The position numbers and the translations under genes were made by a program. 64,000 nt of DNA from assembly GCA_022226935.1 (NCBI GenBank), contig CP092081.1:3727857-3791856 (forward strand), written 5' to 3'. Under the pieces are notes generated by a model. The model worked only from the letters and a program-made list of their open reading frames with translations, did not search any database and was not told where the DNA came from. This DNA is from Nitrospira sp. (GTDB taxonomy: Bacteria; Nitrospirota; Nitrospiria; Nitrospirales; Nitrospiraceae). Below, piece by piece: positions 32,724-39,786 of this stretch (the first letter of the stretch is position 1; every line of letters begins with the position of its first letter).

Positions 32724-33407
32724 ATGCGCGTACACACTTTCTTTTCCAGAAGCGGCACAGTGTCGAGAATCGTGGCGCTCTCCGCCCTCTCGCTATTGAG
32801 CTGTATCGCGTTTCTCTCTTCCACCGCCCATGCCAGTCGAACTCTCGTCGTTCCGATCTCGGTCACGACCTACACGGACAACCAAACAGGCTTTCCGACG
32901 TTCGTCATGAAATGGGACGAGGGCGCTCAGCCGGACCCGTTGTCTTTGCGATGGGGGCGCAGCCAGGTTCCTGTTCGAGGAACCGGCATGACATCGATCC
33001 AGCGCGCGTTTCAATTCGCCGTCACACGGTTGAGCTCCTCCGTTCGCCCGACCGGAACCCTGTCCCTCTATGCGACTTTTACGGGTCCGCTCAGCGAGCA
33101 AGGATCAACGGCTGAAGCTGCGTTGGCGATCGGTTTCATCGCTCTGTTGAAGGGCGATCAGCTGAAACGAGACATAACGATCACGGGAACGTTGGAAGGC
33201 GATGGTCGCATCGGACAGGTGGATCAGGTGGCGGAAAAAACGACCGCAGCCGCAAGAGCGGGCTACCACGTGCTGCTGGTACCGCGCGGGCAATTTTATG
33301 CCCCTCGAATGAATCGCGTCAGTTGGACGGCGGAATCGAACGTCCTCGTCCGCGAAGTAGACACGATCGAAGAAGCGTATGAAATCATGACAGGAAAGAA
33401 ACTCTAG
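32724..33407 (+). CDS. Exported Lon-like (S16) domain protein
   Basis: A 227-residue protein with a signal peptide (ALSALSLLSCIAFLSSTAHAS). From residue ~110 it matches the Lon protease proteolytic fold: GSTAEAALAIGFIALLKG aligns with the Ser loop, DITITGTLEGDGRIGQVDQVAEKTTAAARAG with the Lys strand and helix, and VLVREVDTIEEAYEIMTG with the C-terminal end. The catalytic Lys is kept (Lys172) and lies 43 residues from the nucleophile position, as in E. coli Lon (679/722), but that position is Thr129 rather than Ser; Ser128 is adjacent. No ATPase domain. Likely an extracytoplasmic stand-alone protease or a binding domain. Confidence 0.8.
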   Translation: MRVHTFFSRSGTVSRIVALSALSLLSCIAFLSSTAHASRTLVVPISVTTYTDNQTGFPTFVMKWDEGAQPDPLSLRWGRSQVPVRGTGMTSIQRAFQFAVTRLSSSVRPTGTLSLYATFTGPLSEQGSTAEAALAIGFIALLKGDQLKRDITITGTLEGDGRIGQVDQVAEKTTAAARAGYHVLLVPRGQFYAPRMNRVSWTAESNVLVREVDTIEEAYEIMTGKKL

Positions 33408-33493: not shown

Positions 33494-35968
33494 TCACATC
33501 CAGTTGTTGATGAGCAGGAATGCCGCCCAGAAACTCGGGTGCGTGCGACCGCGCTGAGAAAGAATCTTTTGCTGCGCGCGCTGCAAGGCCACGGCCTTTG
33601 AAATCGCGGGATCCTGGAGCTGCCGGTAGAATTCCGATACGAGTTCCGTCGTCGTTTCGTCATTCGACGTCCACAAGCTCGCCAAAGCCGTCCGTGCCCC
33701 GGTCTTGACGGCGACACCGGTCAACCCGAGCGCCGCGCGATCATCCTCCGCGGCAATTTCGCACGAGCTCAGCGTCAGCAGATCCAACGGCTGTTGCCGG
33801 TACTGTTGGAGTCCCACCAGCTGCGACAACCGGTCCATCGTGATCTTGCCGTCATGGGCCAGCACGAACGAATCTTTCGCCTCGTTGCCGACGACCGTAT
33901 GAGACGCCACATGAACGATCCCCAGGCCCTGGTCTTTGATCTCTTCCTCTAGCGTAGGCGCCGAGAACTGTTTGTTCATCAACAGTTTCCCGCCATACAT
34001 CGTTCTGATCGCCTGCACTTCGGTCTCCGCGTAGCGCGGCGCAGGCTGGCCCTCCACCGATTCAGTCAGGCCGACCGACAACAGGCTGCCTTTGCGGCGT
34101 TGAGCAGGACTCATATCGGTCAGCGCCAGGCTGGGCGTGACCGCCACGGCGAGTGAATCCACGAGAAAATGCCGGCCATCGTGCAGCGCCCCCATCGGAA
34201 TGGTCCTGAGCGATCCCTCGGCCACCATCACGAGCGTATGCACACCCGCCCCTTGCAAGTCCTGCTGAATCGGCGCCACCAACCACCCGTGCAGGGTCTG
34301 CGCCGAAGACAGATAATTCTGGGATTGCGAATCCTGGATCAGCCGCCTGAACGAACGTATTTCCTTCGTCAGTTTGTCTCCCATCACCGGAACCCTGACT
34401 TGCTTGAGGCCGGTGGAAGTTTCCAGGAGCAGTTCGAGCCGGTCGGGGAACGCAATGGGATAGATCACCGCCGTGCCGGGCGCCAACGCGCCGGCGCCTC
34501 GATGGCTCGCCACCGCCGCGACACAATCGTCCTGGAAATAATCCTGCAGCTCGGCCGCCTGCGAGACTTCGATCGTCTCTTTGACCTTCACGAGCAGCTG
34601 TTCATTCTGCTCGGGCGTCTTCGCCGCTGCCGCTCTCCGCAACAGGACATCCTCATACTCCACGAACAGCGGCGCAACGGATTCGTAGTACGAGTGATGC
34701 CGTCCCTGATACCCAACGGAATATTCATAATGAATCGGCTTCAGCAGCGTGACGGCGCGCTGATAGGCGGCCAGAGCTTCTTCTTCCTTGCCGTCCGCGC
34801 GCAACAATCTCGCGGTTTGCCATTGCCAACGGTAGAGTGATTCCGGCGCATTCACTTTTTGAGCGGCGAACATGGCCTTCCGCGTGTACTCCAATGCCTC
34901 AGGGTTGCGATGCTCCTGCTCCCGCAATCCACCCAGATATCCCCAAGCATAGGATTGTCCGCGTGCATCGCCGAGGCGTCCGGCGACTTCACCGGCTGCG
35001 GCAAACGCGTCCGACGATTGACGCAACAGGCCGGCCGCAGACCCGGCAGAAGCCACGGCCTCCGTCGCGCGCCCCTTACCCGCATCTGACTTTTTTGCCG
35101 TACCGGCTTTCCCCGTCGCGGCAGCGAACAATTCCTGATACCCAAGCCCGATGTTCAACAAGCCGGCGGTTTTTGCCTGCCCGTCGCCCAGCGAGCGCAC
35201 CTCGGACCAGGCTTGATCCAAATGGCGGTGGGCTTCACCCAGTTGCTGATTCTGCAACAAGGCCATCGCGCCATTGATTTGTGCCGTGGCCGCCAACGCC
35301 TGCTGCTTGGTTTCAGCGGCAAGCGCCCTGCTCTCCGCATAGACGTCGATCGCTTCGGCAAATTGCCGGCGCGCCGTCAGGGCATTCCCCAAATCGTTCA
35401 AAATCCCGGCTACCAGGACAGGTTTCTTTTCTTCCCTCGCCAGCGTCAAGGCCTTGGTCAAATGTTCGGTAGCCGGTTCGTCTTTCCCGAGCACATGAAA
35501 GGTGTTGCCGAGCTGAGCAAGGATCGTCGCGGTGAGGCCGCGCTCCCCGGCTTGTTCCGACAGCTTGAGCGCGGCTTGCAAGGTCCCCTGCGCGCGGCGG
35601 ATCTGCCCCTCCTGTTGCAGCGCATGCGCCACGTTGATCAAGGCCTGACTTCGCTCTTTGACCTGCCCGGTTTCTTCATATCCCCGCGCCGCATTCATCC
35701 AATGCGCGGCCGCCTGGGCAAAGGCCCCTTGCTGAAACTGTGTCGTCCCCTGTCGCATTTCTTGCGCAGGCGTGATCGACGACGCGCCTGCGCCGCCCAA
35801 CAATTCCAGCGCCGTGGCGTTCACAGGCCAGGCCAAGCCGCTCAACGCCAGCACCCCCAGGCTGAGTATCGTCAACGGCGAGGACAGCGTCGGCGGACCT
35901 GCGGGATGAGCAGCCCCACGGCCTCGCTTCATGCCGCGGCGAGTGACAATATTACGCATCGTAGGCAT
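33494..35968 (-). CDS. CHAT-domain TPR protein
   Basis: An 824-residue protein with a hydrophobic N-terminal segment (TILSLGVLALSGLAWPVNA), so membrane-anchored or exported. About ten tetratricopeptide repeats follow. The C-terminal CHAT (caspase HetF-associated) peptidase domain has catalytic His690 (IVHVASHTVVG) and Cys736 (LLTLSSCEIA). CHAT proteases cleave specific partners and act in signalling, cell death and surface systems. It starts 18 bases after tpsA, with AAGGAGG 5 bases before the ATG. The order tpsB-tpsA-CHAT/TPR suggests the CHAT domain processes or senses the secreted TpsA protein. Confidence 0.9.
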   Translation of the reverse strand: MPTMRNIVTRRGMKRGRGAAHPAGPPTLSSPLTILSLGVLALSGLAWPVNATALELLGGAGASSITPAQEMRQGTTQFQQGAFAQAAAHWMNAARGYEETGQVKERSQALINVAHALQQEGQIRRAQGTLQAALKLSEQAGERGLTATILAQLGNTFHVLGKDEPATEHLTKALTLAREEKKPVLVAGILNDLGNALTARRQFAEAIDVYAESRALAAETKQQALAATAQINGAMALLQNQQLGEAHRHLDQAWSEVRSLGDGQAKTAGLLNIGLGYQELFAAATGKAGTAKKSDAGKGRATEAVASAGSAAGLLRQSSDAFAAAGEVAGRLGDARGQSYAWGYLGGLREQEHRNPEALEYTRKAMFAAQKVNAPESLYRWQWQTARLLRADGKEEEALAAYQRAVTLLKPIHYEYSVGYQGRHHSYYESVAPLFVEYEDVLLRRAAAAKTPEQNEQLLVKVKETIEVSQAAELQDYFQDDCVAAVASHRGAGALAPGTAVIYPIAFPDRLELLLETSTGLKQVRVPVMGDKLTKEIRSFRRLIQDSQSQNYLSSAQTLHGWLVAPIQQDLQGAGVHTLVMVAEGSLRTIPMGALHDGRHFLVDSLAVAVTPSLALTDMSPAQRRKGSLLSVGLTESVEGQPAPRYAETEVQAIRTMYGGKLLMNKQFSAPTLEEEIKDQGLGIVHVASHTVVGNEAKDSFVLAHDGKITMDRLSQLVGLQQYRQQPLDLLTLSSCEIAAEDDRAALGLTGVAVKTGARTALASLWTSNDETTTELVSEFYRQLQDPAISKAVALQRAQQKILSQRGRTHPSFWAAFLLINNWM

Positions 35969-35986
35969 GACGTCCTCCTTGGGGAG

Positions 35987-37264
35987 CTAGCACCCCTGCC
36001 ATGATTCCATAAGTTGTGCGGTCGTCTGACCCTGAATGTGTGCCGCTGGTGCCGCCGGCGCGCCAGGTTCGACATCGCCGCCGATCTCCTCCAGCACCAC
36101 AGGCGCCGCCAGGGATCGACCGGGCTGCGAAGGCGTGACGTCGCGCGAGGCTTGCACCAGGCTGCTGAATGCGCCGTCTTTTCGCGCGGCGCACCGGCTG
36201 GTCAAGAGGGGAGCCGGTGGGGCCGGAGCGTCCTGTGGAAGCACCATGGCTGCACGATTCAAAAATGCGACAGGCTCGACAGGATTCGTCTGATTCACGC
36301 TGGCCGCATTCGCGGTAGCGAGAGGAGGAAGCCCTCCAAGGTTCACTCCCACGACTTGAATTTGCGTCACACGCTGGGTCAATGAATTCGTCGTCGTATT
36401 GACCTGCGCGCCCGTCGGCACGGTGACATTCGGACTCACGTCGATCGAAGCAGGAATGACTCCACCGCCACCCGCAACGATCAGCGTTCCAGGCAATGCT
36501 TGGACCTGCCCGTTGCCCGATGCTCCGGAGAACGGATTTCCAACAGCCGGCTGCGTACTCATTTCACCGGCCGAACTCGTACTGCCGAGAATGACACGCT
36601 GCGCGCTGATTTTCGATCCGTTGATCTGAATGCCTCCTCCCATCAACCCGAGCACAGCACCGGTCTGGAGCACCGTGGATGAAGAGTTCAGGACAATGGT
36701 TCCATAGGGGCCCTGGCCTAAAAATCCGAACGCGACAGGTGAGCCAACCGACAACGTCTGATCGAAGGCGAGGAGACCGGTATTGGCCGTAAATATGCCT
36801 CCGTCACTCAAGCGCAATTGTTGAGCGGTACTGAAATAGGCAGACCCGGACACATTCAGGTGAGCCGATGGGCCGAATACAATCCCGGCAGGATTCAGGA
36901 AGAACAGGTTCGCATTGAGCGCCTGAACAGTGCCGTTGATGTTGGATGGAGATCCTCCGATCACTCGACTGATGACGTTGGACACGCCGCCGGGATTCAC
37001 GAATGCCGCCACATCCCCTGCGCCGACGGAGAATTGGTTGAAGCTATGAAAGAGGTTAGGACCGCCGCCCGGCCTCGTTCCTCCGGCAATGTTGGTCGTA
37101 TTGCCCGATGTGCTCAGAGTCGTTCCAAGGCCGCCGGGTCCCGAAGGAGTTGCGGAGATGTTCGTGCCCTGTCCGTAGGCGATCGACCCGGTGGAGCCCA
37201 GAAGCATCAGGAAGGCGAGGTACCCACGAACCAACAGCGGCAATCCTGCGGGGCGACATAGCAT
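35987..37264 (-). CDS. Two-partner secretion exoprotein TpsA (FHA N-terminal domain)
   Basis: A short 425-residue exoprotein. Signal peptide (LVRGYLAFLMLLGSTGSIAYGQG), then the TPS/haemagglutination activity domain: FHSFNQFSVGAGDVAAFVNPGGVSNVISRVIGG, ...NLFFLNPAGIVFGPSAHLNVSG. The beta-helix region is short and rich in Gly/Ser/Asn. The C-terminus has TSRCAARKDGAFSSLVQASRD, a conserved Cys-containing tail seen in cyanobacterial-type TPS proteins. ATG 37264 with GAGGAG 7 bases upstream is preferred to ATG 37279. Secretion is through TpsB encoded upstream. Confidence 0.9.
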   Translation of the reverse strand: MLCRPAGLPLLVRGYLAFLMLLGSTGSIAYGQGTNISATPSGPGGLGTTLSTSGNTTNIAGGTRPGGGPNLFHSFNQFSVGAGDVAAFVNPGGVSNVISRVIGGSPSNINGTVQALNANLFFLNPAGIVFGPSAHLNVSGSAYFSTAQQLRLSDGGIFTANTGLLAFDQTLSVGSPVAFGFLGQGPYGTIVLNSSSTVLQTGAVLGLMGGGIQINGSKISAQRVILGSTSSAGEMSTQPAVGNPFSGASGNGQVQALPGTLIVAGGGGVIPASIDVSPNVTVPTGAQVNTTTNSLTQRVTQIQVVGVNLGGLPPLATANAASVNQTNPVEPVAFLNRAAMVLPQDAPAPPAPLLTSRCAARKDGAFSSLVQASRDVTPSQPGRSLAAPVVLEEIGGDVEPGAPAAPAAHIQGQTTAQLMESWQGC

Positions 37265-37283
37265 GGTCAATCTCCTCATATGA

Positions 37284-37304
37284 TAAGAGAGGCCCCCTCT
37301 CTTA
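37284..37304 (-). promoter_or_regulatory. Leader hairpin of tpsA
   Basis: TAAGAGAGG (37284-37292) and CCTCTCTTA (37296-37304) form a perfect 9-bp stem with a 3-base loop, about 20 bases upstream of the tpsA ATG. It could stabilise or regulate the tpsA segment of the transcript separately from tpsB. Confidence 0.45.
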
Positions 37305-37544
37305 CCTTAAACGCTGCTCAACTTCAACACGCACACCCTGCTTCACTCACGAACAGAAACGGCAAGGACCTGGCCGATCAGCCCTGGACATTACGCCCTA
37401 GCAAGAGACGCGTCGGCTGCCGGCGGCACGGCGCGCGAGTAAGTCATTGAAAAGAAATTCGCCAAAGCACACAGTCATTCATACCCGACGGCAGGGCGAA
37501 TGTCTCAGCAAGATCAGCGCGCCGCCGTCGAAGCCTGTCCGTCC

Positions 37545-39362
37545 TTAGAACGCCTCTACCACCAGTTGCAGATGGATGCCATGATCCTGCAGGTTGTTGC
37601 GATCGGTATCGTATCGCTTCAGCTGTTTTCCATAATAGAGTTCGAAATGGCTCCCCCGCCAAAAATTCCAGATGACACCGGCACCAAGGCTCGCCAAGGT
37701 TTTGGGGGGCGTCCCGGGCGTCTGGGCCGTCGTCTGCCAGCCATGGCCCAAATCAAAAAAGGGCGCGAGAAAGACTGAATCCACCCCGGCCTTCGTCGTG
37801 TACACCGGAACCCGTGCCTCGATGGATAACATGGCGGCATTGTCACGAATCAGGGTGAACTCCCGATATCCGCGCACACTGTATCGGCCACCGACTGCGA
37901 TCTGCTCGAGCGGGAACAAATGATCGTTGGACAATTGCACGACGCCACGGCTGACCAATTGTGTCCGCCAGAGAGGAAGCTGGCGGATCCACTGGGCTTC
38001 GCCCAACCAGGAGAAGAACCGCGCATCCGGCAGGTTCGGATCACCATTGGCGGTCGCCCCTATCGCGCCGACGCCGACGGAAAACCGCGATAACAGGGAA
38101 ATCACTTGTTCGGCAGAACGCTGGGCATACTCCTGACCGAAACGGAGCGAGGTCACACGGAACTTCCCGTTCGGCGCCCCAGTGATGAGTTCAAACGGGT
38201 TCCCGCCTAACGTGCTCTCATTTCTGGCATGTTCGCCCGTGAGGGAAAAGGCCAGTTCCTGGTCGGCCTTCCGGATCACAGGATGCCGGACCGAGAGACC
38301 GAATATCTGAGCCTTGTTCTTGATATCCAATGCATCGAACGGCGACTCCTCGACTCCGAAATCAAACCGGCGATATTGCAGCGCGACGGTGGTATCGCGG
38401 GGGCCCACCGGGATTTCATACTTGAAGTTGAGCATCGGGTTCACGCCGGCCGAACGCCCATATTGCAAACTCAGCGTATCGCCGAAACCCAACAAATTCT
38501 GGTGCGCCAGCGTGACAAATCCTTGCTCCGCGCCGACGACGGGAGACTGATAGTTGTTGAATTCCAGCCAGGCCTTGAGCGGGTTGGCTTCCTTCACCTT
38601 CACATTGAGCGTATTTTCTCCAATCGTGGCGCCCGGCAACAATTCGGCATTGATCCGTTCGATCCGGGGGTTGGCTTGCATCACGCGCAACCGTTCCTGG
38701 AGCGCTTCGACCTGCAGCGGAGGGCCGGCCGCCAGATTGACGCGGCTCTGAAAATACGAGGGCCGGAACCACTTGGTATCTTCGACGTTGACCTGCGTAA
38801 TCTTTCCCTCGATGACCTGCATGGTCAGGGTGCCGTCCGCGACATCCTGCTCCGGGACCACCGCACCGGACGTCACATAGCCGTGGTTGACATAGTAATA
38901 AGTAAGCGCGAGGCGCAACGATTCCAGATCTTCCGCCGTCAACTCGCGATTCGTATAGGGCGCGGTGATCTCCGAGAGTTGTTGCGACGTAAAGGCCGTA
39001 TTGCCGACCAGCCGGATCTCCTTGACCATGATCTTGGGCCCCTTTGCGGCCTGATCGAGCGCGCCGGGGGGCGTCGGGGTCGGAAGGTCGAGTGCGGGAG
39101 GCTGTGCGGGCGGAGGCACGACGGGCAACTGAGGCAATTTCGGTGGCAACGGGCCGAGCTGCGAGCCGGTCTGCGCATGGGCTGGCCCAACCAGCGCGCC
39201 GAGCAACACCAAGGCCGCCATACCCGCAACAGTCCCACGCCATCGATGCAACACATTCCCGCCTTCCCCACGGCGAGATGAACGACACGACGCGGCCGAA
39301 CGCGCGTCAGCAGGCCTACACAGTCCTGCTTCCTGCCCCACGGATTTCTTCACACAAGCCAT
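37545..39362 (-). CDS. Two-partner secretion transporter TpsB (ShlB/FhaC/HecB family)
   Basis: An outer-membrane beta-barrel that exports TpsA. 605 residues. Signal region TVAGMAALVLLGALVGPAHAQ, a Pro-rich linker, a first POTRA domain (IMVKEIRLVGNTAFTSQQL..., LTMQVIEGKITQVNVED), a second POTRA and a 16-strand barrel ending in FELYYGKQLKRYDTDRNN...LQLVVEAF. The conserved VRGY motif in extracellular loop 6 is present (YSVRGYREF). ATG at 39362 is chosen because GGGGAGG lies 6 bases before it; an in-frame start at 39482 lacks one. The tpsA gene is 280 bases downstream. Confidence 0.93.
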   Translation of the reverse strand: MACVKKSVGQEAGLCRPADARSAASCRSSRRGEGGNVLHRWRGTVAGMAALVLLGALVGPAHAQTGSQLGPLPPKLPQLPVVPPPAQPPALDLPTPTPPGALDQAAKGPKIMVKEIRLVGNTAFTSQQLSEITAPYTNRELTAEDLESLRLALTYYYVNHGYVTSGAVVPEQDVADGTLTMQVIEGKITQVNVEDTKWFRPSYFQSRVNLAAGPPLQVEALQERLRVMQANPRIERINAELLPGATIGENTLNVKVKEANPLKAWLEFNNYQSPVVGAEQGFVTLAHQNLLGFGDTLSLQYGRSAGVNPMLNFKYEIPVGPRDTTVALQYRRFDFGVEESPFDALDIKNKAQIFGLSVRHPVIRKADQELAFSLTGEHARNESTLGGNPFELITGAPNGKFRVTSLRFGQEYAQRSAEQVISLLSRFSVGVGAIGATANGDPNLPDARFFSWLGEAQWIRQLPLWRTQLVSRGVVQLSNDHLFPLEQIAVGGRYSVRGYREFTLIRDNAAMLSIEARVPVYTTKAGVDSVFLAPFFDLGHGWQTTAQTPGTPPKTLASLGAGVIWNFWRGSHFELYYGKQLKRYDTDRNNLQDHGIHLQLVVEAF

Positions 39363-39786
39363 CAAGGCCTCCCCTCTTTCTTGATGACGGGGCACAAAGA
39401 TTCGTGAATCGGTGCCCGTAAAATCATCTGCTCGCGATCTGTTTTTTTGAATGACATTGCTGCTACCCGGCGCATCACGCATTCTTCAGAAACACCACAC
39501 AGTCGCGCGGCAGCCGACTATCAGCCGAGGCGATACGTAGCTGTTTGGAGAATCCGCTCTGCGAAGGAACTGCTTATAACATGTCTCGACACAAATTACT
39601 CCTGGGGCCACAAAGTTTTTTGGTTGGCAGGAATGAATGGATCAGGTTGGCACAGAGTAGACGTCAGAGATACGTGACAGTTCAGCGAGATCGGACGAGA
39701 AAGCGGCCACCCACCCGGAACGAAATGTTCGGGAGGTCCTGTTTCGGACCGGTGTTATGCATACCTCCCTGCGCGCCCTGGCCGTG
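39363..39786. other. Intergenic region between tpsB and tnaA, no gene seen
   Basis: About 424 bases. Apart from the leader hairpin at 39390-39417 and a T-tract near 39436 the region holds only short openings without ribosome sites. It should contain the tpsB promoter and the 3' end of the long catabolic operon; no clear terminator is visible. Confidence 0.5.
39390..39417 (-). promoter_or_regulatory. Leader hairpin of tpsB
   Basis: GGGCAC (39390-39395) pairs with GTGCCC (39412-39417), and inside it GATTC (39399-39403) pairs with GAATC (39406-39410). The two-part stem sits 20-30 bases upstream of the tpsB ribosome site on the minus-strand transcript. Confidence 0.35.

Follow-up and report, generated by a model that had tools for sequence, protein, structure and literature searches.

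What holds a short TpsA exoprotein in the pore of its TpsB transporter, and what might release it? We propose that a periplasmic CHAT partner encoded beside tpsA acts on a cysteine-hook anchor in TpsA in the manner of LapG acting on CdrA, and we put the probability of this reading at roughly 0.5. The first-pass annotation had suggested that the CHAT protease has a specific substrate, either TpsA or a target bound through the TPRs. A dedicated pairing is now strongly supported: CHAT-linked TpsAs share a module that co-occurs with CHAT, the two proteins are naturally fused in one case, and the arrangement is conserved in two phyla. We regard it as very probable that TpsA and the CHAT protein are functional partners; that the CHAT protein cuts the TpsA tail is about an even bet.

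The window analysed here is a 64,000-nucleotide stretch of a Nitrospira genome that forms a 4.23-Mb single contig. As first described, tpsB, tpsA and the CHAT gene are consecutive and co-oriented, and open reading frames and Pfam matches place all three on the minus strand. tpsB (37545–39482) encodes the TPS outer-membrane transporter, identified by Pfam (PF08479, PF03865 and PF01103 matched) and by its orthologues, with a POTRA_2 domain at 38805–39026 (1.2e-23) and a ShlB/FhaC barrel region at 37674–38621 (ShlB 1.7e-32); its true start is likely near 39362, 3' of AGAGGGGAGG. tpsA (35987–37279) encodes a 430-residue exoprotein in which a TPS domain (36560–37126; Pfam PF05860 5.4e-33, NCBIfam TIGR01901 1.1e-19) is followed by a C-terminal tail, as drawn from these matches, a structure model and an alignment of the leader. 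Its N-terminus is hydrophobic and, judged by eye, signal-peptide-like, and a start at 37264, preceded by GAGGAG, appears better than the one at 37279. The protein contains little besides the TPS domain, and so falls short of the typical TpsA size of about 100 kDa or more with a repetitive, beta-rich passenger. A large passenger is typical of TpsA but not strictly defining, and the paralogues in the window genome have 1020–1154 residues; because both defining features, the TPS domain and the TpsB partner, are present, we class the protein as an unusually short TpsA. The TPR-CHAT gene (33494–35968) encodes 824 residues with a signal-peptide-like N-terminus (hydrophobic stretch at about 35810–35881), TPRs (TPR_12, 6.8e-16) and a CHAT domain (4.5e-49) at 33509–34306, assignments that draw on Pfam, a structure model and fold matches. 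The CHAT match to PF12770 scores 167.9 bits against a cut-off of 24, and the dyad is intact as originally read, with His690 encoded at 33899–33901 and Cys736 at 33761–33763.

The three genes had been called an operon. For tpsA and the CHAT gene the spacing agrees, since the reported gap of 18 bases from the tpsA stop to the CHAT ATG is present in the sequence; tpsB and tpsA, however, are 265 bases apart. A TTGAAG-N17-TAAGAG-like stretch (TTGAAGTTG...TTTAGGGTAAGAGAGG-like) at about 37296–37340 on the minus strand lies upstream of tpsA and is conserved in most genus loci, so tpsA and the CHAT gene may have an internal promoter of their own; a promoter consensus scan did not call this stretch. 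Leader hairpins had been described for both tpsA and tpsB. The one before tpsA contains a real 11-bp inverted repeat (37284–37308, minus strand; GGTAAGAGAGG-GGG-CCTCTCTTATC), seen in the sequence, the leader alignment and folding, but the regional fold is non-significant (z −1.46) and the repeat is missing from loci L043, L046, L048 and L049; the hairpin before tpsB falls outside the minimum-energy fold (z −0.95). A conserved regulatory role for these hairpins is not supported, the tpsA repeat being lineage-limited and the folds non-significant.

The evidence that carries our proposal lies in the C-terminal tail of TpsA. In the window protein this module (35990–36193, minus strand) comprises Cys363, the segment SSLVQASRD with Arg379 encoded at 36143–36145, TPSQPG and a terminal WQGC that ends in Cys430, and Cys363 and Cys430 are the sole cysteines of the mature protein past the signal peptide. 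The same plan is common to the CHAT-linked TpsAs of Nitrospirota and Cyanobacteria: a first cysteine, S-x-F, GR[D/G] about 16 residues after that cysteine, and a second cysteine near the terminus. In Nitrospirota it reads LL.QRCAA..G..SS[FL]VVAGRD.LP.EPGGWL.SP followed by a terminal GC.S, and in cyanobacteria Q.C.....S.F..TGRGGLPP.P.E, then VEAQGW and the near-terminal cysteine; the tail of the window lineage is RCAARKDGAFSSLVQASRDVTPSQPG followed by WQGC. Exactly two cysteines follow the start of the TPS domain in 59 of 64 cyanobacterial and 52 of 71 Nitrospirota CHAT-linked TpsAs, usually one about 65–110 residues from the end and the other in the last dozen, and most of the remainder have extra, closely spaced pairs. 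In the 129 TpsAs that carry the pair, its two members are 65 to 163 residues apart (median 92), and a basic residue stands about 16 residues past the first cysteine; it is Arg in 104 of the 116 tails that could be parsed (13 could not), and a few lack a basic residue. Seven of eight TpsAs with neither a nearby CHAT gene nor the module contain no cysteine from the TPS domain onwards.

Is the module homologous in the two phyla? A module HMM built from cyanobacteria only recovered 18 of 71 Nitrospirota CHAT-linked tails at 1e-3 and is too weak alone, so we turned to profile–profile comparison of the last 130 residues of TpsA, chosen with no selection by motif. The cyanobacterial and Nitrospirota tail profiles match at E=6e-16, while 20 column-permuted nulls all gave 0.05 or more. 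The tails of large Nitrospirota TpsAs match those of the window lineage at 2.5e-14. Compared directly, the cyanobacterial and window-lineage tails match poorly (E 0.042), so that the larger Nitrospirota TpsAs are the only link between them. As judged from these sequence profiles, the C-terminal module is homologous across Nitrospirota and Cyanobacteria.

The module also tracks the presence of CHAT. In 198 Nitrospirota genomes, a CHAT gene lies within 15 kb of 72 of 136 TPS genes, more often than by chance, and among the CHAT genes listed for this phylum 59 of 131 are near a TPS gene; proximity of tpsA and CHAT alone is weak evidence of partnership. A module profile (A2, applied at 1e-4 or better) matches 43 Nitrospirota genomes, all 43 of which contain a CHAT gene, versus four of the 24 TPS genomes without the module. 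At the level of genes, 68 of 79 TpsAs bearing the module have a CHAT gene within 15 kb, versus 4 of 57 without the module (Fisher test, 1e-21), figures to be read with the facts that CHAT-linked TpsAs made up most of the profile's training set and that the genomes are related. Given that training set, the profile–profile result is the less circular support. The tail is absent from same-phylum TpsAs with no CHAT gene nearby (L098, L099, L102 and L105–L109), and the tail-bearing exceptions (L094, L096, L100 and L101) belong to genomes that hold a CHAT gene elsewhere. Two-cysteine TpsA tails are thus found almost only beside CHAT, which suggests a dedicated anchor-and-release system.

Conservation of the locus had been put forward as a check in Nitrospirota and cyanobacteria, and adjacency of TpsA and CHAT is found in both phyla. 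The window CHAT orthologue is matched in 29 of 29 genomes searched in the genus, and the complete tpsB–tpsA–CHAT trio was confirmed in all 13 genus loci fetched, the window included; in these 13 loci its neighbours are mostly shared (an SDR gene, a Lon-domain-like gene, a beta-eliminating lyase gene and an HTH gene). A second locus in the window genome (L037) is ordered tpsA–tpsA–tpsB–CHAT and encodes large TpsAs. In cyanobacteria, where 80 loci were fetched by CHAT similarity alone and six plasmid loci were added, the stretch retrieved includes a TpsA for 51 CHAT genes; 47 are on the same strand and 28 are directly adjacent, and the median gap is 41 bases. On three cyanobacterial plasmids (L142, L143 and L144), CHAT genes sit in a recurrent cluster beside DUF928 genes, CHASE2 genes, and DUF1822 or AAA-like genes; in L143 and L144 TpsA lies upstream of CHAT in the DUF928/CHASE2 cluster, which is possibly a sensing module. 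The Lon-domain-like gene adjoins the trio in 11 of the 13 genus loci. In the window it is convergent with the CHAT gene (32724–33407, plus strand) and encodes a small protein resembling the Lon (S16) C-terminal domain (PF05362, 7.5e-07) with a signal-peptide-like start, in which the Lon Ser and Lys dyad appears, by eye, to be replaced (GSTAE versus GPSAG; VAEK versus LKEK).

The two partners have been joined at least once. Plasmid pREC3 of Acaryochloris marina MBIC10699 (L227, 4475–9745) contains one 1756-residue frame with a TPS domain, the GRGG module, TPRs and CHAT, and the GRGG module sits at the TpsA/CHAT junction. TpsA and CHAT, normally neighbours, can therefore form one chain. In this single example the first cysteine is kept and the second is lost. 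After the fusion gene come two genes whose annotation is toxin-activating lysine-acyltransferase. A second candidate, in Halotia (H85), was rejected; it consists of two separate genes 3 bases apart.

The CHAT protein itself was modelled with AlphaFold2 (pLDDT 85), and three rows from plasmid records were left out of the structure job on CHATs. The closest solved structures are the Craspase TPR-CHAT protein (Z about 30) and the catalytic domain of separase (Z 23.4, 310 residues at 3.5 A), and the closest folds to its TPR region are those of LGN/Pins; when PDB sequences were searched with the CHAT domain as query, no relative emerged. Hydrophobic N-terminal stretches are present in 55 of 59 Nitrospirota and 81 of 87 cyanobacterial CHATs by a crude measure that involves no signal-peptide predictor, and such N-termini fit export. 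TPS-linked CHATs further share a linker motif, AELxDYFxDxC (AELQDYFQDDC in the window protein), that ends in Cys482 (34523–34525, minus strand). This cysteine is invariant in alignments of TPS-linked CHATs, and the motif is found in 133 of 146; it was not found in the stretch read of the window genome's two non-TPS CHATs (G000:C1:3677883-3678719 and G000:C1:664958-665809, in open frames of 1168 and 1058 residues). Exactly two cysteines follow residue 70 in 82 of the 146 TPS-linked CHATs, and these are probably Cys482 and the catalytic one. Cys482 could possibly act as a redox switch or form a mixed disulfide with TpsA.

We propose that TpsA would be exported via TpsB and its C-terminal tail would stay in the periplasm, where Cys363 and Cys430 would probably form a disulfide, closing a loop (the cysteine hook) by which TpsA is kept in the TpsB pore. 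The TPR-CHAT protein would reach the periplasm through its own signal peptide, bind this tail and, when active, cut it, and TpsA would then be released or matured as CdrA is by LapG. The likeliest cut would fall inside the loop, directly after the conserved basic residue (Arg379; GR or SR followed by D or G). Most clan CD families cleave after Arg, and separase (family C50) does so as well (PMC4357240), whereas Craspase enzymes cleave at non-conserved, non-Arg sites (PMC11106740); for this reason cleavage may fall elsewhere than at the conserved Arg, and the assignment of the site is a guess. In the structure model of TpsA the C-terminal tail has no confident structure and is probably flexible, and hook and cut site are consequently not placed in three dimensions.

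Does the pairing always involve proteolysis? The first-pass annotation had named a non-functional dyad in close homologues as a finding that would count against it, and five of the 29 same-genus CHAT orthologues have one: C736S in G112, H690Q in G121, G210 and G171, and H690R in G204. The tree of these changes needs four losses, at least three of them forced by supported branches, and we take the dyad to have been lost independently about four times in the genus. dN/dS is 0.06–0.08 in the three dyad-lost CHATs tested, and the TpsA module is kept where the dyad is lost; proteolysis is therefore not always needed. The dyad is intact, in contrast, in 57 of 60 Nitrospirota and 88 of 88 cyanobacterial TPS-linked CHATs, and the three exceptions all belong to these window orthologues, from which we conclude that the ancestor probably had an intact dyad and that some lineages can dispense with it. 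All five dyad-lost genomes also carry another TPS-linked CHAT with an intact dyad, and none of about ten genomes with a single TPS-linked CHAT has lost it (Fisher test computed by hand, about 0.1), so a restriction of dyad loss to genomes with an intact paralogue is suggestive only. In our proposal the losses would mean permanent anchoring of the adhesin, or help from the paralogue. G210 also contains a second copy of the trio (L233, G210:C35:178000-187000, and L127) whose CHAT gene is broken by a frame change into fragments that overlap at residues 566–570; H690Q is present in both copies.

These losses bear on the main rival of cleavage, which is binding without it. The CHAT protein could be a non-catalytic periplasmic adaptor or holding factor whose TPRs bind the hook module and keep TpsA secretion-competent or anchored, the caspase-like site being secondary. 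The repeated loss of catalytic residues while purifying selection still acts on the remainder of the protein and on the TpsA module speaks for such a role, as does the peptide binding known for TPR regions of the LGN/Pins type. The near-universal dyad of the TPS-linked CHATs speaks against it, and so does the intact paralogue in each dyad-lost genome, which could act in trans; we consider the adaptor unlikely, if the strongest of the alternatives. Less likely still, the CHAT protein would sense from the TpsA tail whether export is complete or blocked and would cut another protein, with TpsA as trigger and not substrate. The nearest folds are indeed proteases regulated by partner binding, Craspase and separase (PMC10028731, PMC9729208), but the conserved Arg lies inside the TpsA module itself, and in a non-systematic inspection of the loci we saw no third gene accompanying the pair across both phyla. 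That the two are mere neighbours, with CHAT an unrelated cytoplasmic protein of the defence type, is close to refuted: CHAT genes, like TPS genes, are common in Nitrospirota genomes and 72 of the 131 CHATs listed lie away from TPS, but co-occurrence of module and CHAT, adjacency in two phyla, the fusion, the signal-peptide-like N-termini and the lack of the TPS-type linker motif in the window genome's two other CHATs all oppose it.

The proposed anchor and release can be set beside several known systems. CdrA is presumed to have a C-terminal cysteine hook and is released when periplasmic LapG cuts near its C-terminus (PMC11898600, PMC5422565), and in HMW1 and HxuA of Haemophilus influenzae a C-terminal loop closed by a disulfide keeps the tail locked inside the pore of TpsB (PMC5422565, PMC8151025). 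Like CdrA–CdrB/LapG of Pseudomonas aeruginosa, the window system would pair a TPS adhesin bearing a C-terminal cysteine pair with a releasing protease; unlike the c-di-GMP-controlled LapG, its candidate protease is a TPR protein of CHAT/separase fold encoded next to tpsA. LapG belongs to a different protease family from CHAT. The cysteine pair is likewise shared with HMW1 and HxuA, the disulfide here being a prediction from sequence, but in the CHAT-linked TpsAs the cysteines stand 65–163 residues apart (median 92), with GR[D/G] between them and a CHAT gene alongside. The TPR and CHAT architecture, and the best structural match, are those of Craspase TPR-CHAT (Csx29), which differs in being RNA-activated and Cas7-11-bound, in its substrate Csx30 (PMC11106740), and in sequence (about 10% identity); no Cas gene was seen among the annotated neighbours of the window gene. 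The catalytic domain shares its fold with separase, a eukaryotic enzyme that acts on cohesin and is about 14% identical, and the acidic residue of the separase ExxR motif was not seen before the Arg of the TpsA module. A full-text search of open-licence papers returned none that links CHAT to TPS, to hemagglutinin or to the GRGGLPP motif.

Extended to the family, our proposal is that across Nitrospirota and Cyanobacteria a separase-like CHAT protein recognises and cuts a GR[D/G] cysteine-hook module and thereby releases an adhesin, and that in some lineages the partner is dead and the adhesin permanently anchored; we hold this broader form tentatively, at slightly under even odds. A 2017 review of TPS systems stated that the genes of maturation proteases apparently lie outside TPS operons (PMC5422565). 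If our reading is true, many genomes would depart from that statement through a built-in CHAT partner whose substrate module can be recognised, and TPS adhesins would have a second route of release besides LapG. With the module in hand the hypothesis can be tested directly, and nature supplies controls in the form of the dyad losses. The TpsA module would then be a likely natural substrate for many of the bacterial CHAT proteins that lie outside CRISPR systems, a large group.
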